45,751 nt of DNA, taken from the NCBI GenBank assembly GCA_947177425.1, contig CAMWUN010000027.1, forward strand, positions 1 through 45,751, given 5' to 3'. The notes beneath the pieces are model-generated. The model was not told the origin of the DNA and ran no database searches. It saw only the letters and a program-made list of their open reading frames with translations. Shown here piece after piece: positions 36,702 through 44,874 of the stretch. The translations under genes were made by a program, and so were the position numbers. The stretch is from an uncultured bacterium. GTDB taxonomy: Bacteria > Bacillota > Clostridia > Lachnospirales > Lachnospiraceae. Within the stretch, counting starts at the first letter, position 1, and each line of letters opens with the position of its first letter.

Positions 36702-38009
36702 TTACTCCTCCTCATACTTTTCCGTTTCCGGCACTGCTTCGCCATATTCTTCTGCGTATTCCTCACTTCCTTCTTCTACATATTCTTCCGCCGGCTCCTC
36801 CTCATACTCCTCTACAGGCTCCTGCGTATACTCCTCTCTGGACTCTTCTCCATACTCTTCTCCAGATTCTCCCTCATACTCCTCTCCGGGTTCTCCCTCA
36901 TACTCCTCTTCATATTCATCATATTCATCGTACTCATCCATATAGTCTTCATAGCGGAATCCGGGAGCATCCTTGGCCTGTGTCTCGCTCTTGATGTCTA
37001 TCTTATATCCTGTCAGTCTTGCCGCCAGCCTTGCGTTCTGCCCTTCCTTGCCGATTGCAAGAGAAAGCTGGTAATCCGGTACAACTACCTTGGCTGTCTT
37101 CTCGTCCGGATCGGCAAACACTGCAACAATTTTCGCAGGGGAAAGTGCATTCTGAATCAGATTGCCCGGATTTTCATCCCAGTTGATAATGTCGATTTTT
37201 TCCCCCCGCAGTTCCTCCACAATGGAATTTACACGGGCGCCGTTAATTCCCACGCAGGCTCCCACGGCATCCACGTTCAGGTTGTTGGATCTTACCGCCA
37301 TCTTAGTCCTGCTTCCGGCCTCTCTGGCAATGCTCATGATTTCAACAGTGCCGTCTTTAATCTCCGTAACCTCCGCTTCAAAGAGACGTTTGACAAGCTC
37401 CGGGTGGGTCCGGCTGACTAAAATTCTCGGTCCCTTGGGTGTGTTCTTTACTTCCAGGATGTACACCTTAATCCTCTCGGTGGGCTTGAATATCTCCCCC
37501 TTTACCTGCTCGCTTTCATTTAAAATCCCATCAGCCTTTCCAAGATTAATGCTGATATTCTTACCTATATAGCGCTGTACAATACCTGTAATGATATCCT
37601 TTTCCTTCTCGAAATACTGGTTGTAAATTACGCTGCGCTCTTCTTCACGTATCTTTTGCAGGATGACGTTCTTTGCATTCTGGGTGGCAATACGTCCGAA
37701 TTCCTTAGATTTTATTTCCACATGAATAATATCCCCAAGCTGTGCATTAGATTTGATTTCCCGGGCATTTTCAAGGGAAATCTGCAGGCAGTCATCTTCT
37801 AACTCTTCTTCCTCCACCACTTCCTTTTCCGCATAACAAAGGAAATCACAGGTATCCCGGTCGATTTCCACCTTAATATTGTCAGATTTTCCGAAATGGT
37901 TCTTGCAGGCTGTAATCAGAGAGTTTTCAATGGCTTCAAAAAGTGTGTCCTTGCTGATTTCCTTCTCCTTCTCCAAAATATCCAGTGCTTCCATTAATTC
38001 CTTGTTCAT
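36702..38009 (-). CDS. nusA: Transcription termination/antitermination factor NusA
   Basis: The 435 residues comprise NusA_N (1-125, [20 protein letters not shown]), S1 (about 135-200, [20 protein letters not shown]) and KH domains (about 230-345, with [20 protein letters not shown] and [20 protein letters not shown]). After about residue 353 comes an 80-residue tail made almost wholly of Glu and Tyr, with EEY recurring about every eight residues. This replaces the short tail of Bacillus NusA. NusA binds RNA polymerase and promotes pausing and intrinsic termination. The terminator in the leader of its own operon offers a route for feedback. Confidence 0.96.
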
Positions 38010-38545: not shown

Positions 38546-38574
38546 AAAAAAGAGTGGACCGCCAAGTCCACTCT
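38546..38574 (-). terminator. Intrinsic terminator in the rimP-nusA leader (putative attenuator)
   Basis: AGAGTGGAC (38551-38559) and GTCCACTCT (38566-38574) form a perfect 9-bp stem with a 6-nt loop, followed on the minus strand by TTTTTT. It lies between the rimP promoter (-10 at 38603) and ATG 38523, so it acts inside the leader. It also ends read-through from cotH. In Bacillus subtilis the equivalent leader terminator is NusA-dependent and gives autoregulation. Confidence 0.75.
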
Positions 38575-38716: not shown

Positions 38717-40435
38717 TTAATATCTGTGCTGTCCAGGCCGGGAGGAATCGTTCCCTGCCATATCCATTCCCCCCATATCAGATATATTAATACCAGACGC
38801 GTCAATCAAAGATGCGCTATCCTGCGCCTGTCCCTGAGATGTGGAAGGGATTTCACCGTCAAGCTGCCCCCGTATACTTTCCGCCCGCAGCAGACAGAAC
38901 TCTTTCAGGGTATCCGCCCCTGTCAGGAATTCCTCATAGGTACAGAATTTTGTAATATCTTTTTCTACATATGGCGCTATCAATTCCTTTACATTGTCAA
39001 TCATTTCTGTGAAATATCCGCTTTCAAAGTACGTGGCTATAAATTCTGAAAAATATTCATGATACAATTCTGTATATTCTGCGCTGCTGAAAATCCAGCT
39101 AAGCATCGGCCTGGATTCTATGGTATCCCCCGAGACGGGCGAATCAATCGGATAGTTGACAAGAGATGAAGCATCCCCTGCCCTCTGAAAGCCCCCGAAA
39201 GCCAGATTGTAATCCCATGGTATCATGGATAACTGTCCGTCTTTTTCATAAAGATAATAATTATGAATTAGATTTCCTGTATAACTGTCAAAATTGCAGA
39301 CAAAATTATGTACCACAAAATACCGGATGACCTCCTCCACATTGACTACATCCTCAATGTTTACGCCTTCATTCAATTGCTTAAGGGATGCAATCAGACG
39401 GTCTTTATCGGCATTGGTAACAGTTGTTTTGGCATTTTCAAAAATATTTTTATAACTGTCATATGCATCATCTGAATAGACAAGAGCCACATCACTGCTC
39501 CCCATACTCTGTCCCATTCCTCCTCTGTCCGGTTTTTCGCCGCCGGCAAAACCGTTGCCGTCCGCAGGTACCCGTGACCTGTCATCATCTGACGGCTCTT
39601 CCTTTGGCCATCCGCCGTCCGCAGGCATCTGCGGTCTGCCTCCCGCAAAATCTCCATCGCCAGACATTTGCTTCCTGTCTCCCTCCGGCCAGCCGCCCTC
39701 TCCGGGCATCTGCGGTCCACTGCCTAGCCTGTCTCCCTCTTCAGGCATTGGAAGCCTTTCTTCCCCGTCAAAATCCTCCATATTAAAGTCCTTACCATGT
39801 CCCCGGCCTCCGCCCATGTCCATGCTGTCAGGCTTATACAGTTTACCGTAATCTCTTCCATAGTTCCGCTCAAGAAAAGCTTCTTCCACGCTTTCTACCG
39901 CCAGATACAGTCCCCATTCCTTACCGTTTACAGTTATATTTACGTAACTGCAAAGAGGTGCGTCCACACCGGCCTTCCGCATCATCTGATAGGTCAGATA
40001 GTCTTTCATATATGTATTGTCCTGTATAATATTGTTCAGACTGATTTTATCAAGTCCATAATAACTTTTTCCGCTTTCATAATGGTCAAATTCAATTTTA
40101 AAGCTGTAACGGTCATTGCCATAGCGTTCCACCTGGGTCAGTGACGTATTTCCCTTTGCGCGTATTCCCACATTTTTGTATGTCTCATTGTCAATCACAA
40201 CAGAACACAGGGAATATTCCTCACTGGTACAGGTATCAATAAAGCCATCCCAATCCTCCATTATTATGTCAATACTGTGAACCATGGAGGTATCGAAAAG
40301 ATGGAATCCATAATCTTCTACCCTGGCTGCTTCCACAACGCCCAATGCCTTTGCATTCATAAAAAGGACTGTAATTATCATGGAAAGCACAAGAACGGCA
40401 CAGCAGACCTTATCAATATGCTTGTGGGTCGACAT
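38717..40435 (-). CDS. CotH-family secreted or membrane-anchored protein kinase
   Basis: The 572-residue protein has an uncleaved-looking N-terminal helix (about 9-31) and a CotH domain split by an insert. Conserved blocks are NVGIRAKGNTSL (90-99), YSFKIEFD, GLDKISLNN (127-135), YVNITVNGKEWGLYLAVESV, then NLIHNYYLYEKDGQLSMIPW with DYNLAFG. Asp408 lies in PWDYN, where CotH kinases bind metal and ATP. Residues 203-316 are a Gly/Asp/Pro/Met-rich insert with repeats such as PQMPGEGGW and GDFAGG. CotH of Bacillus phosphorylates spore-coat proteins, but the target here is unknown. It is the last gene of the VTC-DUF4956-cotH operon, 14 bp after DUF4956. Confidence 0.9.
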   Translation of the reverse strand: MSTHKHIDKVCCAVLVLSMIITVLFMNAKALGVVEAARVEDYGFHLFDTSMVHSIDIIMEDWDGFIDTCTSEEYSLCSVVIDNETYKNVGIRAKGNTSLTQVERYGNDRYSFKIEFDHYESGKSYYGLDKISLNNIIQDNTYMKDYLTYQMMRKAGVDAPLCSYVNITVNGKEWGLYLAVESVEEAFLERNYGRDYGKLYKPDSMDMGGGRGHGKDFNMEDFDGEERLPMPEEGDRLGSGPQMPGEGGWPEGDRKQMSGDGDFAGGRPQMPADGGWPKEEPSDDDRSRVPADGNGFAGGEKPDRGGMGQSMGSSDVALVYSDDAYDSYKNIFENAKTTVTNADKDRLIASLKQLNEGVNIEDVVNVEEVIRYFVVHNFVCNFDSYTGNLIHNYYLYEKDGQLSMIPWDYNLAFGGFQRAGDASSLVNYPIDSPVSGDTIESRPMLSWIFSSAEYTELYHEYFSEFIATYFESGYFTEMIDNVKELIAPYVEKDITKFCTYEEFLTGADTLKEFCLLRAESIRGQLDGEIPSTSQGQAQDSASLIDASGINISDMGGMDMAGNDSSRPGQHRY

Positions 40436-40449
40436 GCATTTCCTCCTTC

Positions 40450-41121
40450 TTATCCCATATATTCGCCGTTATAGCTTACCAGAACCGCGCTTTTTACCCC
40501 ATCCATCTCTGCAAGGGTATTGATAAAATCCGCATCATCTTCTTTCATACGTATCTCAACATTCAGTTCCACAAGTCCTTTTTGCGCAGTCTTGCTTTTC
40601 ATCACGCACCGTCTGGTCTGTTCCCTCAAAAGCTCCATTGCCATTTTTTCACTGTCGTGATCCTCACAGCGGATGACCACCATGTAAGGGTTCATGTGCG
40701 TTTTCCTGTTGACTAATGCCAGAAGGACAATACCGATTGCGGCGCTTCCAAATATCGCAAGGGGAATCAGGCCTGCCGCCAGTACAATGCCCGCCCCGAT
40801 CGACCAGAACAGAAACGTAATATCAAGCGGTTCTTTGACAGCCGTGCGGAACCGGACAATGGACAACGCGCCCACCATCCCTAAAGAAAGCACCACATTG
40901 GAGGTAACTGCCAGAATAACCAGGGTGGTAATCATGGTAAGCGCCACAATCGTAACGCCAAAGGATGAGGAATACATCACTCCGGAAAAAGTCTTTTTGT
41001 AGACCAGAAAAATAAACATGCCGACGGCAAATGCAAGCAACAGCGCAAGGGCCATATCCAATATAGTTACACTGGAGATATTCTCCAGAAATCCCGATTT
41101 GAAAATATCATTAAATGTCAT
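40450..41121 (-). CDS. DUF4956 membrane protein
   Basis: The 223-residue protein has four or five helices in residues 18-140. The conserved centre SLGMVGALSIVRFRTAVKEP, then LDITFLFWSIGAGIV, is the DUF4956 signature. A cytosolic C-terminal domain (about 145-223) has a ferredoxin-like pattern (PYMVVIRCEDHDS; LNVEIRMKEDDADFINTLAE). No function has been established for the family. Its repeated partners are VTC-type polyphosphate polymerases and CotH proteins, as here. AAAGGAG lies 10 bp upstream, and VTC ends 75 bp before it. Confidence 0.88.
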   Translation of the reverse strand: MTFNDIFKSGFLENISSVTILDMALALLLAFAVGMFIFLVYKKTFSGVMYSSSFGVTIVALTMITTLVILAVTSNVVLSLGMVGALSIVRFRTAVKEPLDITFLFWSIGAGIVLAAGLIPLAIFGSAAIGIVLLALVNRKTHMNPYMVVIRCEDHDSEKMAMELLREQTRRCVMKSKTAQKGLVELNVEIRMKEDDADFINTLAEMDGVKSAVLVSYNGEYMG

Positions 41122-41196
41122 TTTATAAGTACTCCTTTCATATAAACCAGTCTGTGCATCTTAGCCAGTTGTCCAATTAACGTTTTATACATGCGC

Positions 41197-41868
41197 TTAA
41201 CCAAAAATCCTGCAGGCAGCATATTTGGAAAAAGCTGTGCTCTGTCTGCCCCTTAGCTGGACAATATCCCGGATAACCGAGGGCAGAAATTCATCCCATT
41301 TTACCTCAAGGATAACCGGCGCATATCCTGTGGGAATGGTAATACAGTCTGCGTCCAGGAATTCTGTCCCAAAAAGTCCCGTCCGTATATTATAATCCAG
41401 CGTTACCCGCACATTGCCGGGGGCATAAACAAATGCCTCTCTTGTATAGTCCACAATGGTTTTGGGGTTCAGCCCCTGTGACTGCATTTTAAAGCATAAC
41501 TCCTGCAGCAAAGGCTTATCCTCTGCCTGAATCCAATTGGATTTGCGGCTGATAACCGCCTGTACTTCCTCTAAAGACAGACGCACCTGCTCTTTCTGGC
41601 AAAGGCCGTTTATTTTACTTTTCTTTTCCAGCAGAATAAACGATGTATTGCTATTGTAATAGCGGAGCCGGAATTTTTCCCGTAAATTGATGCCGTTTAT
41701 TTTTTCCAGCAGAGCTTTGTCCTGCAAATTGTCAAAGTACAGACTGCGTACCTCATACTTACCATCTATGGCATGTGCATCCAGCTCCATAGCAGCGCAA
41801 AGCCGCGGCCGGAGAATGGATATATCGCTTTCATTGATTTCATGTTTCCATTCATGCCGGAATTTCAT
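41197..41868 (-). CDS. VTC-domain polyphosphate polymerase-like protein
   Basis: ATG 41868 follows AAAGGAG by 8 bp; a longer in-frame start is rejected. In 223 residues the VTC/CYTH tunnel fold is recognisable: FRHEWKHEIN, YEVRSLYFDN, LREKFRLRYYN, ILLEKKSKINGLCQKEQVRL, NVRVTLDYNIRTG and VILEVKWDEFLP. These basic and acidic strands line the tunnel where yeast Vtc4 makes polyphosphate from ATP. There is no SPX domain or membrane helix of its own, so DUF4956 may anchor it. It is the first gene of the operon with DUF4956 and cotH. Polymerase activity is inferred from the fold only. Confidence 0.87.
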   Translation of the reverse strand: MKFRHEWKHEINESDISILRPRLCAAMELDAHAIDGKYEVRSLYFDNLQDKALLEKINGINLREKFRLRYYNSNTSFILLEKKSKINGLCQKEQVRLSLEEVQAVISRKSNWIQAEDKPLLQELCFKMQSQGLNPKTIVDYTREAFVYAPGNVRVTLDYNIRTGLFGTEFLDADCITIPTGYAPVILEVKWDEFLPSVIRDIVQLRGRQSTAFSKYAACRIFG

Positions 41869-41900
41869 GGCGCCCACTCCTTTCTTCCTTATCTGCATGT

Positions 41901-41906: not shown

Positions 41907-41956
41907 ACCGGACAACCTTAGCTGAAACTTAAAAAATCACCGCTTGGCAGCGAACA

Positions 41957-42108: not shown

Positions 42109-43350
42109 TTAAAAAGTAACCGTAAACAAAACCATATCCGTCCCTTCATACCTGGCAGTAATACTGCCCTTATTTGCCTGGGCAATACTATGTGCCAGAG
42201 ACAGGCCAATTCCATAGCCCCCCGATTTCTGTGTGCGGGCCGCATCTCCCCGGTAAAAACGGTCAAACAATTTACCGGGCGGCGCATCCGGCAGGCTTTC
42301 ACAGTTATTTTTCATTTGCAGCAGGATGTCCTTTTCCTTTCTTTTCAGACTGACGTACACCATGCCGCCTTCCTTTGTGTACTTTGCGGCATTATCAAAA
42401 AGTATGGAAATAAGCTGCCTTATCTGCTCTTTGTCCGCTCTTATCACAATACCGGACTGGATTTCCAATTGAAGCCTTATCCCTTTTTGTTCCAGCAATT
42501 CGGCAAACGACTGTGCCATTTCGCCAAGCAGTTCATCCAGCAAAAACTCCACAGCCTCCGCCTGTGCCGCAGCCTCATCCATTCTCGCAAGAAGTAACAG
42601 GCTGTTCATCAGCCCATTCAGCCTTACAGTCTGTGTACGGATATTTTGCGTCCACTTGTTTTCACCGTTATAAAGCTCCATGGCCTCCGTGTTTGCAAGA
42701 ATTATGGCAAGAGGCGTCTTTATCTCATGTCCCGCATTTGTGACAAACTGTTTTTGCTTTTCAAAATTCATGGCAATAGGCCGGATTGCCCTTTTTGACA
42801 AAAAGATAACCAGCGCCAGCATAAACAGCCAGCAGACAAGGCCGATTCCCACAGAAAGAAACAGGACTCTCACATAGGATAGAATCTCCTCAGAAGTGTC
42901 GAGGAACACAATCACCATACCTTTTCCTGTCCGGGCGCTTTTTATCTGGTATCTGTATTTTCCCGCTTTTCCTGCCCTCTGCCCGCTGTGATATGCTTCC
43001 AAAGCAAGTTCCTTTGCCTTTTCCTCGTCCACGGAAGGCACACGGCTTACATCGGTATGCACGGCCTGGCCCCTTTCATTAAACCACACCATAAAAAAAT
43101 TGGAGGATAAAAATTTATCCCTTTCATCCTTTGGCCTGACCCGGAAGTCATGAGGCGGCGCAGAATCAGGGGGCGCAGGAATATGCCCCATCTCCCCTTC
43201 TGTCTCCGCCAGCATGGAAAGAGTTTTGTCCACTTCTTTTCCTACAATTGCAATATTTACCACATTGATTGTGCCAAGAAGAAAAAGCAACAGTACAGTA
43301 ACAGCGGCCATTGCTGTAACAACAAACTTTTTCTGGAGCATCCTTATCAT
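42109..43350 (-). CDS. Sensor histidine kinase (HisKA/HATPase)
   Basis: The 413-residue kinase has helices at about 10-35 and 162-185. They flank a 125-residue external domain containing a His/Pro/Asp-rich stretch (GHIPAPPDSAPPHDF) that could bind metal. No clear HAMP domain follows. His208 (TNAGHEIKTPL) is the phosphorylated residue; the N-box is LISILFDNAAKYT and the G-box GGYGIGLSLAHSIA. Its ATG overlaps the response-regulator stop by 4 bp. Stimulus and target genes are not evident. Confidence 0.93.
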   Translation of the reverse strand: MIRMLQKKFVVTAMAAVTVLLLFLLGTINVVNIAIVGKEVDKTLSMLAETEGEMGHIPAPPDSAPPHDFRVRPKDERDKFLSSNFFMVWFNERGQAVHTDVSRVPSVDEEKAKELALEAYHSGQRAGKAGKYRYQIKSARTGKGMVIVFLDTSEEILSYVRVLFLSVGIGLVCWLFMLALVIFLSKRAIRPIAMNFEKQKQFVTNAGHEIKTPLAIILANTEAMELYNGENKWTQNIRTQTVRLNGLMNSLLLLARMDEAAAQAEAVEFLLDELLGEMAQSFAELLEQKGIRLQLEIQSGIVIRADKEQIRQLISILFDNAAKYTKEGGMVYVSLKRKEKDILLQMKNNCESLPDAPPGKLFDRFYRGDAARTQKSGGYGIGLSLAHSIAQANKGSITARYEGTDMVLFTVTF

Positions 43351-44021
43351 TTTTCCGCCTCCAGTTTATAGCCGATATTCCGCTTCGCCTGTATTGTAAC
43401 ATTCCCATCCAGCTTAGCCAGTTTCTTGCGCAGACAGGAAATATATACCCAGACCGTACCAAGTTCCACCTCTGTTTCATATCCCCACACCTTCGTAAGC
43501 AAGTCTTCGCTGGAAAGAAAGTTTCCTCTGTTCAGCATTAAAAGTTCCATCAGTTTATATTCCTGCTTTGGAAGCAGAAAAGACCGCCCGTTTCCGCTTA
43601 ATTCATAACTTTGCCTGTTAAGGGAAATTCCTCCGGCTTTCAGAATGTCGGGCGTAAAATTTTCTTTCCGCCGCAGCATGGCGCGGACACGGGCCAGCAG
43701 TTCCCCCATGGCAAAAGGCTTAGGCAGGTAATCGTCGGCCCCCAGATCCAGTCCCTGTATTCTGTCTTCCACTTCTGTCTTCGCCGTCAGCAAAAGGATT
43801 GGCGTGTTATTTCCGCTTTTGCGCAATCTCCTTAACACCTCAAGCCCGTCCAGCCGGGGCATCATGATATCCAGGATGATACCGTCATACTGCTCCCCTT
43901 CCGCGTACGCCAGGGCATCCACGCCGTTGTATACAGCATCTACTGTGTACTTGTGATAGGTCAGTATATCGACCACCGCATCAGACATACCGGTTTCATC
44001 CTCGGCATACAATAACTTCAC
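43347..44021 (-). CDS. OmpR/PhoB-family response regulator
   Basis: GTG 44021, 7 bp after GGAGG, is preferred; the longer open frame would run back through the end of pgeF. In 224 residues the receiver has Glu8/Asp9 (AEDE), phosphoacceptor Asp51 (ILDIMMPRLDG), Thr79 (LLLTAK) and Lys101 (LPKPFA). The C-terminal winged helix contains LPKQEYKLMELLMLNRGNFL, TVWVYISCLRKKL and NIGYKLE. It lies 4 bp after pgeF and is coupled to the kinase. Confidence 0.94.
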   Translation of the reverse strand: MKLLYAEDETGMSDAVVDILTYHKYTVDAVYNGVDALAYAEGEQYDGIILDIMMPRLDGLEVLRRLRKSGNNTPILLLTAKTEVEDRIQGLDLGADDYLPKPFAMGELLARVRAMLRRKENFTPDILKAGGISLNRQSYELSGNGRSFLLPKQEYKLMELLMLNRGNFLSSEDLLTKVWGYETEVELGTVWVYISCLRKKLAKLDGNVTIQAKRNIGYKLEAEK

Positions 44022-44025
44022 ACAT

Positions 44026-44874
44026 TCACCTCCGTAATTCCAGAAAGGCCGCCAGATTCCCCCTTTGGCCATTGCTGGCTCTATGTGAAAACAAAACACT
44101 GCTGTTACAGCAAGTGCACAAATCCGTCATAGCCAGCCGCTCCGGCTTTATCCCTGCCTGCAGGAGAATCCTGCGGTTTGCCTCCCACAGGTCAAGCTGG
44201 TATTTTCCTTCCTCTTTTCCGTCCTTCAAAAGCGCTTCCCACTCTCTGGGAAAGCCTTCCTTTACCTTCCGGGCAACATCCTCCCCTACTTCATAACAGT
44301 CCTGACAGATACAGGGGCCGATAGCCGCCGCCATGTCCTCCGGCCTGCTGCCAAAAGAAGCGCCCATGGCTTCCACCATGACTTTCCCCATTCTGCTGAC
44401 CGTTCCCCTCCATCCTGAATGGGCAAGCCCTATGGCCCGATTCTTTTCGTCAACAAAATAAAGCGGCACGCAGTCTGCAAAAGAGGTACAGAGCACAATC
44501 CCCGGCACATTGGTAATCAGCCCGTCTATGTCCTCATAATCTGCCGGGTAAACCACCCCTTTTCCGCAGTCCTTATCTGTTACCAGACGAACATTGATGG
44601 TATGGGTCTGCCGGGAACAGACAATTTTATCCGGCGTAGTCTCAAAGATTTCCGCTATCCTCCTGAAATTTTCATCCACCGCCTCTTTCCTGTCCCCACG
44701 CTGGTAACTGAAATTCATGGTGGCATAAATCCCCTCACTGACGCCGCCGATTCTGGTGGTAAACAGATGACGGATACTTTTTACCTCATCCAAAAGCGGG
44801 AAAGTCAGATACTCTGCCTCTTTATATTTTCGCACCTTCATAGGCGCATTGCTTTCTTTACGGGTTAACTCCAT
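44026..44874 (-). CDS. pgeF: Laccase-domain peptidoglycan editing factor PgeF (YfiH/DUF152)
   Basis: The start is ATG 44874 behind AGGAGGG; 58 extra in-frame codons would extend into yraN and are rejected. The 282 residues show CSRQTHTINVRLV, VLCTSFADCVPLYFVD, GLAHSGWRGTVSRMG, AAIGPCICQDCYEVG and the C-terminal CTCCNSSVLFSHR. His and Cys residues in these blocks form the metal site of the family. E. coli YfiH hydrolyses wrongly built UDP-MurNAc-L-Ser (or Gly) intermediates, and related enzymes act on purine nucleosides. It lies between yraN and the two-component genes, 4 bp before the latter. Confidence 0.9.
   Translation of the reverse strand: MELTRKESNAPMKVRKYKEAEYLTFPLLDEVKSIRHLFTTRIGGVSEGIYATMNFSYQRGDRKEAVDENFRRIAEIFETTPDKIVCSRQTHTINVRLVTDKDCGKGVVYPADYEDIDGLITNVPGIVLCTSFADCVPLYFVDEKNRAIGLAHSGWRGTVSRMGKVMVEAMGASFGSRPEDMAAAIGPCICQDCYEVGEDVARKVKEGFPREWEALLKDGKEEGKYQLDLWEANRRILLQAGIKPERLAMTDLCTCCNSSVLFSHRASNGQRGNLAAFLELRR

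Follow-up and report, generated by a model that had tools for sequence, protein, structure and literature searches.

What do a VTC-domain protein, a DUF4956 membrane protein and a CotH-family kinase do together when their genes stand side by side? The question is raised by three genes on contig CAMWUN010000027.1, from an uncultured bacterium of the Lachnospiraceae, in a stretch of 45,751 nt; the whole of this stretch is termed the window here, and all coordinates are positions in it (Table 1). The original prediction described three adjacent same-strand genes, with gaps of 75 bp (VTC to DUF4956) and 14 bp (DUF4956 to CotH) and a terminator on each side, and this was borne out by the open reading frame (ORF) list, which places all three on the minus strand, by Pfam and by a terminator scan, the stems being consensus matches only (nine were found in the scanned region against 5.8 expected from shuffles). 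A good ribosome site precedes each of the three starts, and the Pfam matches (VTC PF09359, 3.6e-39; DUF4956 PF16316, 1.1e-10; CotH PF08757, 9.7e-65) all exceed the curated cut-offs; on this sequence evidence the VTC and CotH proteins are members of the families after which they are named. We propose, at a probability of about 50%, that the locus encodes a membrane-docked and possibly exporting polymerase whose product would be polyphosphate, with an exchangeable surface domain that, where it is CotH, may make use of that product. By computation we found the polymerase fold, conserved polymerase residues, a paired membrane protein, an anchored partner, exchange of its ectodomain and a recurrent regulator.

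We took as close relatives the best 80 of 197 loci from species-representative genomes, with VTC proteins 58-76% identical to that of the window; wider samples comprised 119 genomes across the phylum, 196 genomes of the class and 14 control genomes. In 79 of the 80 close relatives DUF4956 comes directly after VTC and shares its strand; 75 of these also have the third gene, and the median gaps are 28 bp between VTC and DUF4956 and 11 bp between DUF4956 and the third gene. Two of the five relatives that have no third gene are cut inside DUF4956 (L020 and L036), two end shortly after it (L042 by 168 bp and L025 by 380 bp), and the fifth is L028, the sole relative with a lone VTC, which has neither DUF4956 nor a third gene beside it. 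Across the phylum, VTC and DUF4956 were present in the same 14 of 119 genomes at equal copy numbers, 22 of each, and, judged by listed position, 21 pairs lie less than 1 kb apart, the last one being in genome G058, with each gene near a contig end. Both also matched in the same three control genomes (Bacteroides, Corynebacterium and Methanosarcina). In the class sample VTC occurred in 101 genomes, DUF4956 in 100 and both in 98 (Fisher 1.5e-49; the Fisher values given here ignore relatedness between genomes), with equal copy number in 90 of the 98. The five one-sided genomes comprise two with VTC fragments (G234 and G271), one with a partial DUF4956 at a contig end (G209) and two with matches below the Pfam cut-off (G216 and G222). 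At 97 of 100 class loci, chosen from 130 VTC matches and nearly all one per genome, DUF4956 adjoins VTC; the other three are L250 (in genome G153), L272, where another gene lies between the two, and L308, where VTC is a fragment. The window's genome contains four VTC-DUF4956 pairs, that of the window and three more. Co-occurrence of VTC and DUF4956, which the original prediction had suggested counting, is thus far beyond chance, and we conclude that the core unit is the near-obligate VTC-DUF4956 pair.

The VTC protein has 223 residues when read from the ATG at 41868, which an AGGAG ribosome site favours over a longer mechanical ORF of 233 residues that starts at 41898 and supplies the residue numbering used below. 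Its VTC profile score is 135 bits against a cut-off of 23, and its AlphaFold model is a confident tunnel-type barrel (pLDDT 87.4). When the model was searched with Foldseek the 13 best matches in the PDB were all eukaryotic VTC structures, headed by yeast Vtc4 (3g3r, E 1e-14, TM 0.74); single-protein sequence searches of the PDB with VTC and with DUF4956 gave no match. We then aligned the window protein with 202 others, one per locus and each of at least 205 residues; about 80 of the rows are close relatives of the window VTC, and 82 of the 203 are less than 35% identical to it, the lowest at 19%. Eighteen positions were conserved at 1.00, fifteen of them charged or serine, and they include K75, R77, R79, E91, K93, K102, R153, R164, D168, E198, K200, S224 and K225, so that the tunnel residues whose loss would have told against the original prediction are kept. 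In a VTC profile search of the PDB, R77 and R79 aligned with R264 and R266 of Vtc4 (we counted the chain index of 5iiq as 3 higher than the published Vtc4 numbering), and R264, R266 and E426 are the residues that were replaced to inactivate that enzyme (PMC9911596; this and the other papers named here are cited from part of their text). E198 is probably the counterpart of E426, a match made by motif only in a region outside the profile alignment. The polymerase site looks intact by these comparisons. In Pfam the VTC domain stands alone in the window protein (223-233 residues), and no SPX or membrane domain was found on it. The ordinary polyphosphate kinase, PPK1, was present in 43 of the 101 VTC genomes of the class, the window's included, and in 25 of the 95 others (odds 2.1, p 0.024); VTC genomes thus show no avoidance of PPK1, and the idea that VTC merely substitutes for PPK1 was dropped.

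The DUF4956 protein has predicted helices followed by a ferredoxin/ACT-like C-terminal domain at residues 142-220; the fold search covers these residues and says nothing on the membrane half. Arg92 is conserved at 1.00 and Arg90 at 0.98 (198 rows), and conserved basic residues near the membrane would suit a polyanion, which is suggestive only. The protein appears remotely MgtC-like: an NCBIfam MgtC-type model matched it at 3.5e-7 (30 bits against a cut-off of 214), and 12 of 16 DUF4956 members matched Pfam MgtC, the best at 0.0024, while the window protein itself gave no Pfam MgtC match at E 1 and the DUF4956 profile matched the PDB at chance level only. A membrane part with an ACT-like tail may be a layout shared with the MgtC/SapB family, to which DUF4956 has weak profile similarity; DUF4956 differs in falling far below the NCBIfam cut-off and in being the partner of VTC. 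Anchoring of VTC by DUF4956, as first suggested for this locus, would fit the close pairing of the two.

A potential explanation, in which no polymer would be exported, is that VTC is a tunnel-enzyme phosphatase, or a sensor for nucleotides or short polyphosphate, and that DUF4956, in the manner of MgtC, regulates the energy or phosphate status of the membrane. The weak MgtC similarity just described would suit this, and Foldseek did also match the VTC model to other tunnel enzymes, bound to tripolyphosphate. However, these matched less well (best E 1.6e-9), VTC structures fill the 13 best places, and the residues aligned with R264 and R266 of Vtc4 are conserved throughout; we consider this explanation decidedly unlikely.

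The third gene is optional and exchangeable, its outer domain being swapped on a kept anchor. The window CotH consists of an N-terminal tip and anchor (about residues 1-34) and a CotH domain, with an insert rich in Gly, Met, Pro and Asp at about residues 205-315. Its predicted catalytic residues are Asp383 and Asp408, from alignment with the CotH structure 5jd9, the equivalence to D228 and D251 being by alignment and spacing; Asp383 is kept in 54 and Asp408 in 67 of 68 rows, 13 of which are Cthe_2159 proteins, so that these are not figures for CotH only. Among the 75 close relatives with a third gene it can be seen that 62 encode CotH and 13 a Cthe_2159 beta-helix on the same N-terminal tip and helix; Pfam confirmed Cthe_2159 for seven proteins in all, two of the thirteen relatives being among those checked. 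The anchor consensus of the third proteins is MSTHK-ID-IC...T-FMNGE-LGI, and the median identity between CotH and Cthe_2159 anchors is 0.50, whereas shuffled anchors give 0.09. Beyond the anchor, BLAST gave 17 matches between the two kinds of protein that passed E 1e-3, the best three spanning only 21-74 residues, and we take these to be shared low-complexity repeats. Repeats rich in Gly, Met, Pro and Asp, of very different length, can be seen by eye in both versions (for example at L018, L044 and L012), and some third proteins appear by eye to carry a second, C-terminal hydrophobic helix.

In a tree of VTC plus DUF4956 three changes are needed to explain the Cthe_2159 label, of which well-supported branches force at least two, and three CotH loci nest inside the Cthe_2159 group; this tree covers 77 of the 80 loci (L028, L020 and L036 were left out, and the window was excluded), and its bootstrap had not settled. 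We also typed the partners within 4 kb at the 100 class loci with profile HMMs, which gave CotH at 39 and Cthe_2159 at 31; some loci end sooner than 4 kb, so the count with neither is an upper bound. In the phylum sample Cthe_2159 proteins, mostly lipoprotein-like, adjoin VTC-DUF4956 at L157, L159, L166, L168 and L172. A hydrophobic segment lies near the N-terminus of 111 of 112 complete linked CotH partners and of 48 of 50 complete Cthe_2159 partners, the remaining two of the latter being lipoprotein-like. These segments support an outward-facing, membrane-anchored CotH, in keeping with the surface kinase of the original prediction. That prediction did not hold in treating CotH as a fixed part of the module, given Cthe_2159 in its place at 31 of 100 class loci and in 13 of 75 relatives and neither at 30 of 100; nor can a single polyphosphate-kinase pathway explain all the forms, and a fixed pathway from VTC to the kinase was ruled out, as the kinase is exchanged or absent. 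That the cytoplasmic tip is conserved suggests that it may dock on VTC or DUF4956.

CotH is present in 80 of the 196 class genomes, 74 of which have VTC (Fisher 1.8e-23), and 12 of the 14 CotH genomes in the phylum sample have VTC. Of the six CotH genes in the window's genome, five adjoin a VTC-DUF4956 pair; the sixth (G000 C1:95356-96471) lies far from any such pair. The CotH of G114, which has no VTC, and an unlinked copy in G062 (contig 3) are short, have no N-terminal anchor and look cytoplasmic.

These results bear on a further possibility, that the genes are merely co-transcribed and have no joint function. A third gene that varies or is absent would be expected on that basis. However, the gene order is kept in flanks that differ from locus to locus, VTC and DUF4956 share their presence and absence across genomes, and the outer domain changes on an anchor that stays; the idea is largely refuted and we regard it as very improbable.

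Outside the trio a histidine kinase was the commonest neighbour in the close relatives, at 41 of the 80 loci, followed by a response regulator at 38; the next family reached 8 of 80. In total 42 histidine kinases are linked to these loci, and the regulator genes are on the same strand or divergent; two-component genes, counting any relatives at E 1e-15, were found near 39 of the 100 class loci. The surroundings of the trio are otherwise unrelated, though a regulator of its own often accompanies it. In the window the two-component system (42109-44099) lies immediately upstream of VTC on the same strand, and it probably sets the expression of the trio; the original prediction named neither this system, nor the three further pairs of the genome, nor the exchange of the outer domain. 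Downstream of the trio, rimP, nusA and infB form an ordinary housekeeping cluster, in which NusA (36702-38009, minus strand) has a long, repetitive C-terminal tail rich in Glu and Tyr after its KH domains.

Table 1. Positions in the 45,751-nt window of the three genes, their recurrent neighbours and the flanking stems.
Feature	Position	Strand	Evidence
VTC-domain (triphosphate-tunnel) polyphosphate polymerase-like gene	41197..41868	-	Pfam, AlphaFold, Foldseek, conservation, ribosome site
DUF4956 membrane protein, 223 aa	40450..41121	-	Pfam, model, residue conservation
Membrane-anchored CotH-family kinase (predicted), 572 aa	38717..40435	-	Pfam, alignment with CotH 5jd9
Sensor histidine kinase gene, recurrent neighbour	42109..43350	-	HisKA, HATPase_c; 41/80 relatives
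Response regulator gene, recurrent neighbour	43347..44099	-	Receiver and Trans_reg_C; 38/80 relatives
Terminator-like stem, 10 pairs, beyond cotH and before rimP	38551..38574	-	Consensus match
Terminator-like stem, 7 pairs, after the histidine kinase gene and ahead of VTC	41937..41953	-	Consensus match

The grouping of cotH, VTC and DUF4956 is itself not new. In 2020, cotH, a polyphosphate polymerase gene, DUF4956 and DUF4832 were described as accessory genes that adjoin pelDEADAFG in Gram-positive pel clusters of streptococci and clostridia, bifidobacteria having a related set, and it was suggested that Pel may be regulated through phosphorylation by CotH (PMC7112168). The same three gene families stand side by side there and in the window, but the set in the window is free-standing, next to rimP-nusA and with a two-component system of its own; PelF and PelG gave no match in the window (PelD, PelE and PelA were not searched), and the part of that paper drawn on here does not speak of Cthe_2159 in place of CotH. 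A DUF4832 search found no match in the window's genome, and none in the 14 control genomes either. A C. perfringens locus has also been printed as VTC / 'tubulin' / resolvase / VTC / 'tubulin' / CotH (PMC2879425), in which the 'tubulin' genes would be DUF4956, judging from their length and from the gene order in Planococcus. In the open-access literature searched we found no account of the near-obligate pairing, of a stand-alone form beside a two-component system, or of ectodomain exchange on one anchor; nor did that literature, which leaves out most subscription papers and all preprints, yield a described mechanism for the module.

An extension of the 2020 proposal would have the module modify or regulate a surface polysaccharide, with CotH phosphorylating a Pel-type or other glycan, or a synthase protein, and VTC-DUF4956 providing or sensing phosphate. 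L165 has a PelG gene (by Pfam) and a DUF3492 glycosyltransferase, which we read as PelF, ahead of two CotH genes, VTC and DUF4956, and there are plasmid loci with glycosyltransferases. The gene that separates VTC from DUF4956 at L272 (6912-8666) encodes a secreted protein with SLH and polysaccharide deacetylase domains. The three other pairs of the window's genome sit among glycosyltransferase-, acyltransferase- and flippase-like genes, named by eye only. Binding of cellulose and polygalacturonic acid has been reported for Cthe_2159 proteins (PMC6712302), so that a role with a surface polymer could also be envisaged. However, with ten query proteins we found Pel or other tested polysaccharide genes near just 6 of the 100 class loci and 2 of the 80 close relatives, and none in the window. 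Polysaccharide synthesis as a general role was dropped on these counts, and we hold the wider proposal to be somewhat unlikely. One locus of the window's genome (L005, C16:38000-57900) has two VTC-DUF4956 pairs 8 kb apart and three CotH genes, among MBOAT acyltransferase, SGNH, radical SAM, UDP-galactopyranose mutase and glycosyltransferase-like genes (named by eye).

Eukaryotes are known to make polyphosphate with VTC and to move it across a membrane. The window-type polymerase shares with the eukaryotic VTC complex (yeast Vtc1/Vtc3/Vtc4; 3g3q, 3g3r, 8i6v, 7ytj) the tunnel fold, conserved basic residues and close pairing with a membrane partner. It differs in that no SPX or membrane domain was detected on the bacterial polymerase, and in that the partner is DUF4956, with an ACT-like tail, rather than the three-helix VTC membrane domain; any channel function of DUF4956 would be hypothetical. 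The kinase domain and both catalytic Asp positions are common to the window CotH and the spore-coat CotH kinases of Bacillus (5jd9/5jda; PMC7821199), whereas the window-type CotH is predicted to be membrane-anchored and to face outwards.

In the membrane-docked polymerase that we propose, cytoplasmic VTC would polymerise polyphosphate from ATP while docked on DUF4956, and the chain would be delivered outside through or beside DUF4956, so that the machine would resemble the yeast VTC complex in its working, its membrane subunit being unrelated. The third protein would be tethered to VTC-DUF4956 by its short cytoplasmic tip and one membrane helix, and its exchangeable outer domain, the CotH kinase in the window and the Cthe_2159 beta-helix in some relatives, would handle the product, with the neighbouring two-component system setting expression. 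A narrower form of this model, in which VTC-DUF4956 is a synthase-exporter and the ectodomain works on the emerging chain, is unlikely in our estimation: polyphosphate would serve CotH as phosphoryl donor where there is no ATP, or the chain or its metal salt would be bound by Cthe_2159. The source of ATP for spore-coat phosphorylation by CotH has been called unanswered (PMC7821199).

Several observations weigh against the docked polymerase. Close pairing of VTC with DUF4956 would also fit a regulatory partner that transports nothing, and the DUF4956 model is weak (overall pLDDT 66.7), its membrane half being poor. VTC and DUF4956 copy numbers differ in 8 of the 98 class genomes that have both. 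In G153 the VTC match and DUF4956 are on separate contigs, with no VTC in the 11 kb around DUF4956, and in G213 a third DUF4956 (L313, C13:43000-56000) directly follows a Cthe_2159 gene, with no VTC in 13 kb. The 30 class loci that have no CotH or Cthe_2159 gene within 4 kb belong here too, as do the CotHs of G136, G225 and, in the phylum sample, G068, which look anchored or secreted in genomes that gave no VTC match. We conclude from the latter that CotH does not need VTC, and, together with the existence of a non-kinase partner, they argue against a strict coupling of CotH to polyphosphate. A rule that surface CotH needs VTC was ruled out: six of the 80 CotH genomes of the class have no VTC (G121, G136, G144, G181, G225 and G261, with weak matches in G144 and G181), and the CotHs of the two that were examined look anchored or secreted.

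If the docked polymerase is correct, a bacterial counterpart of VTC with a different membrane subunit would be present in 98 of 196 genomes of the class, and DUF4956 would gain a function. With an exchangeable ectodomain at hand, what drives kinases outside the cell becomes a question that can be tested directly. Our results suggest that a bacterial version of the polymer-making machine of yeast may exist.

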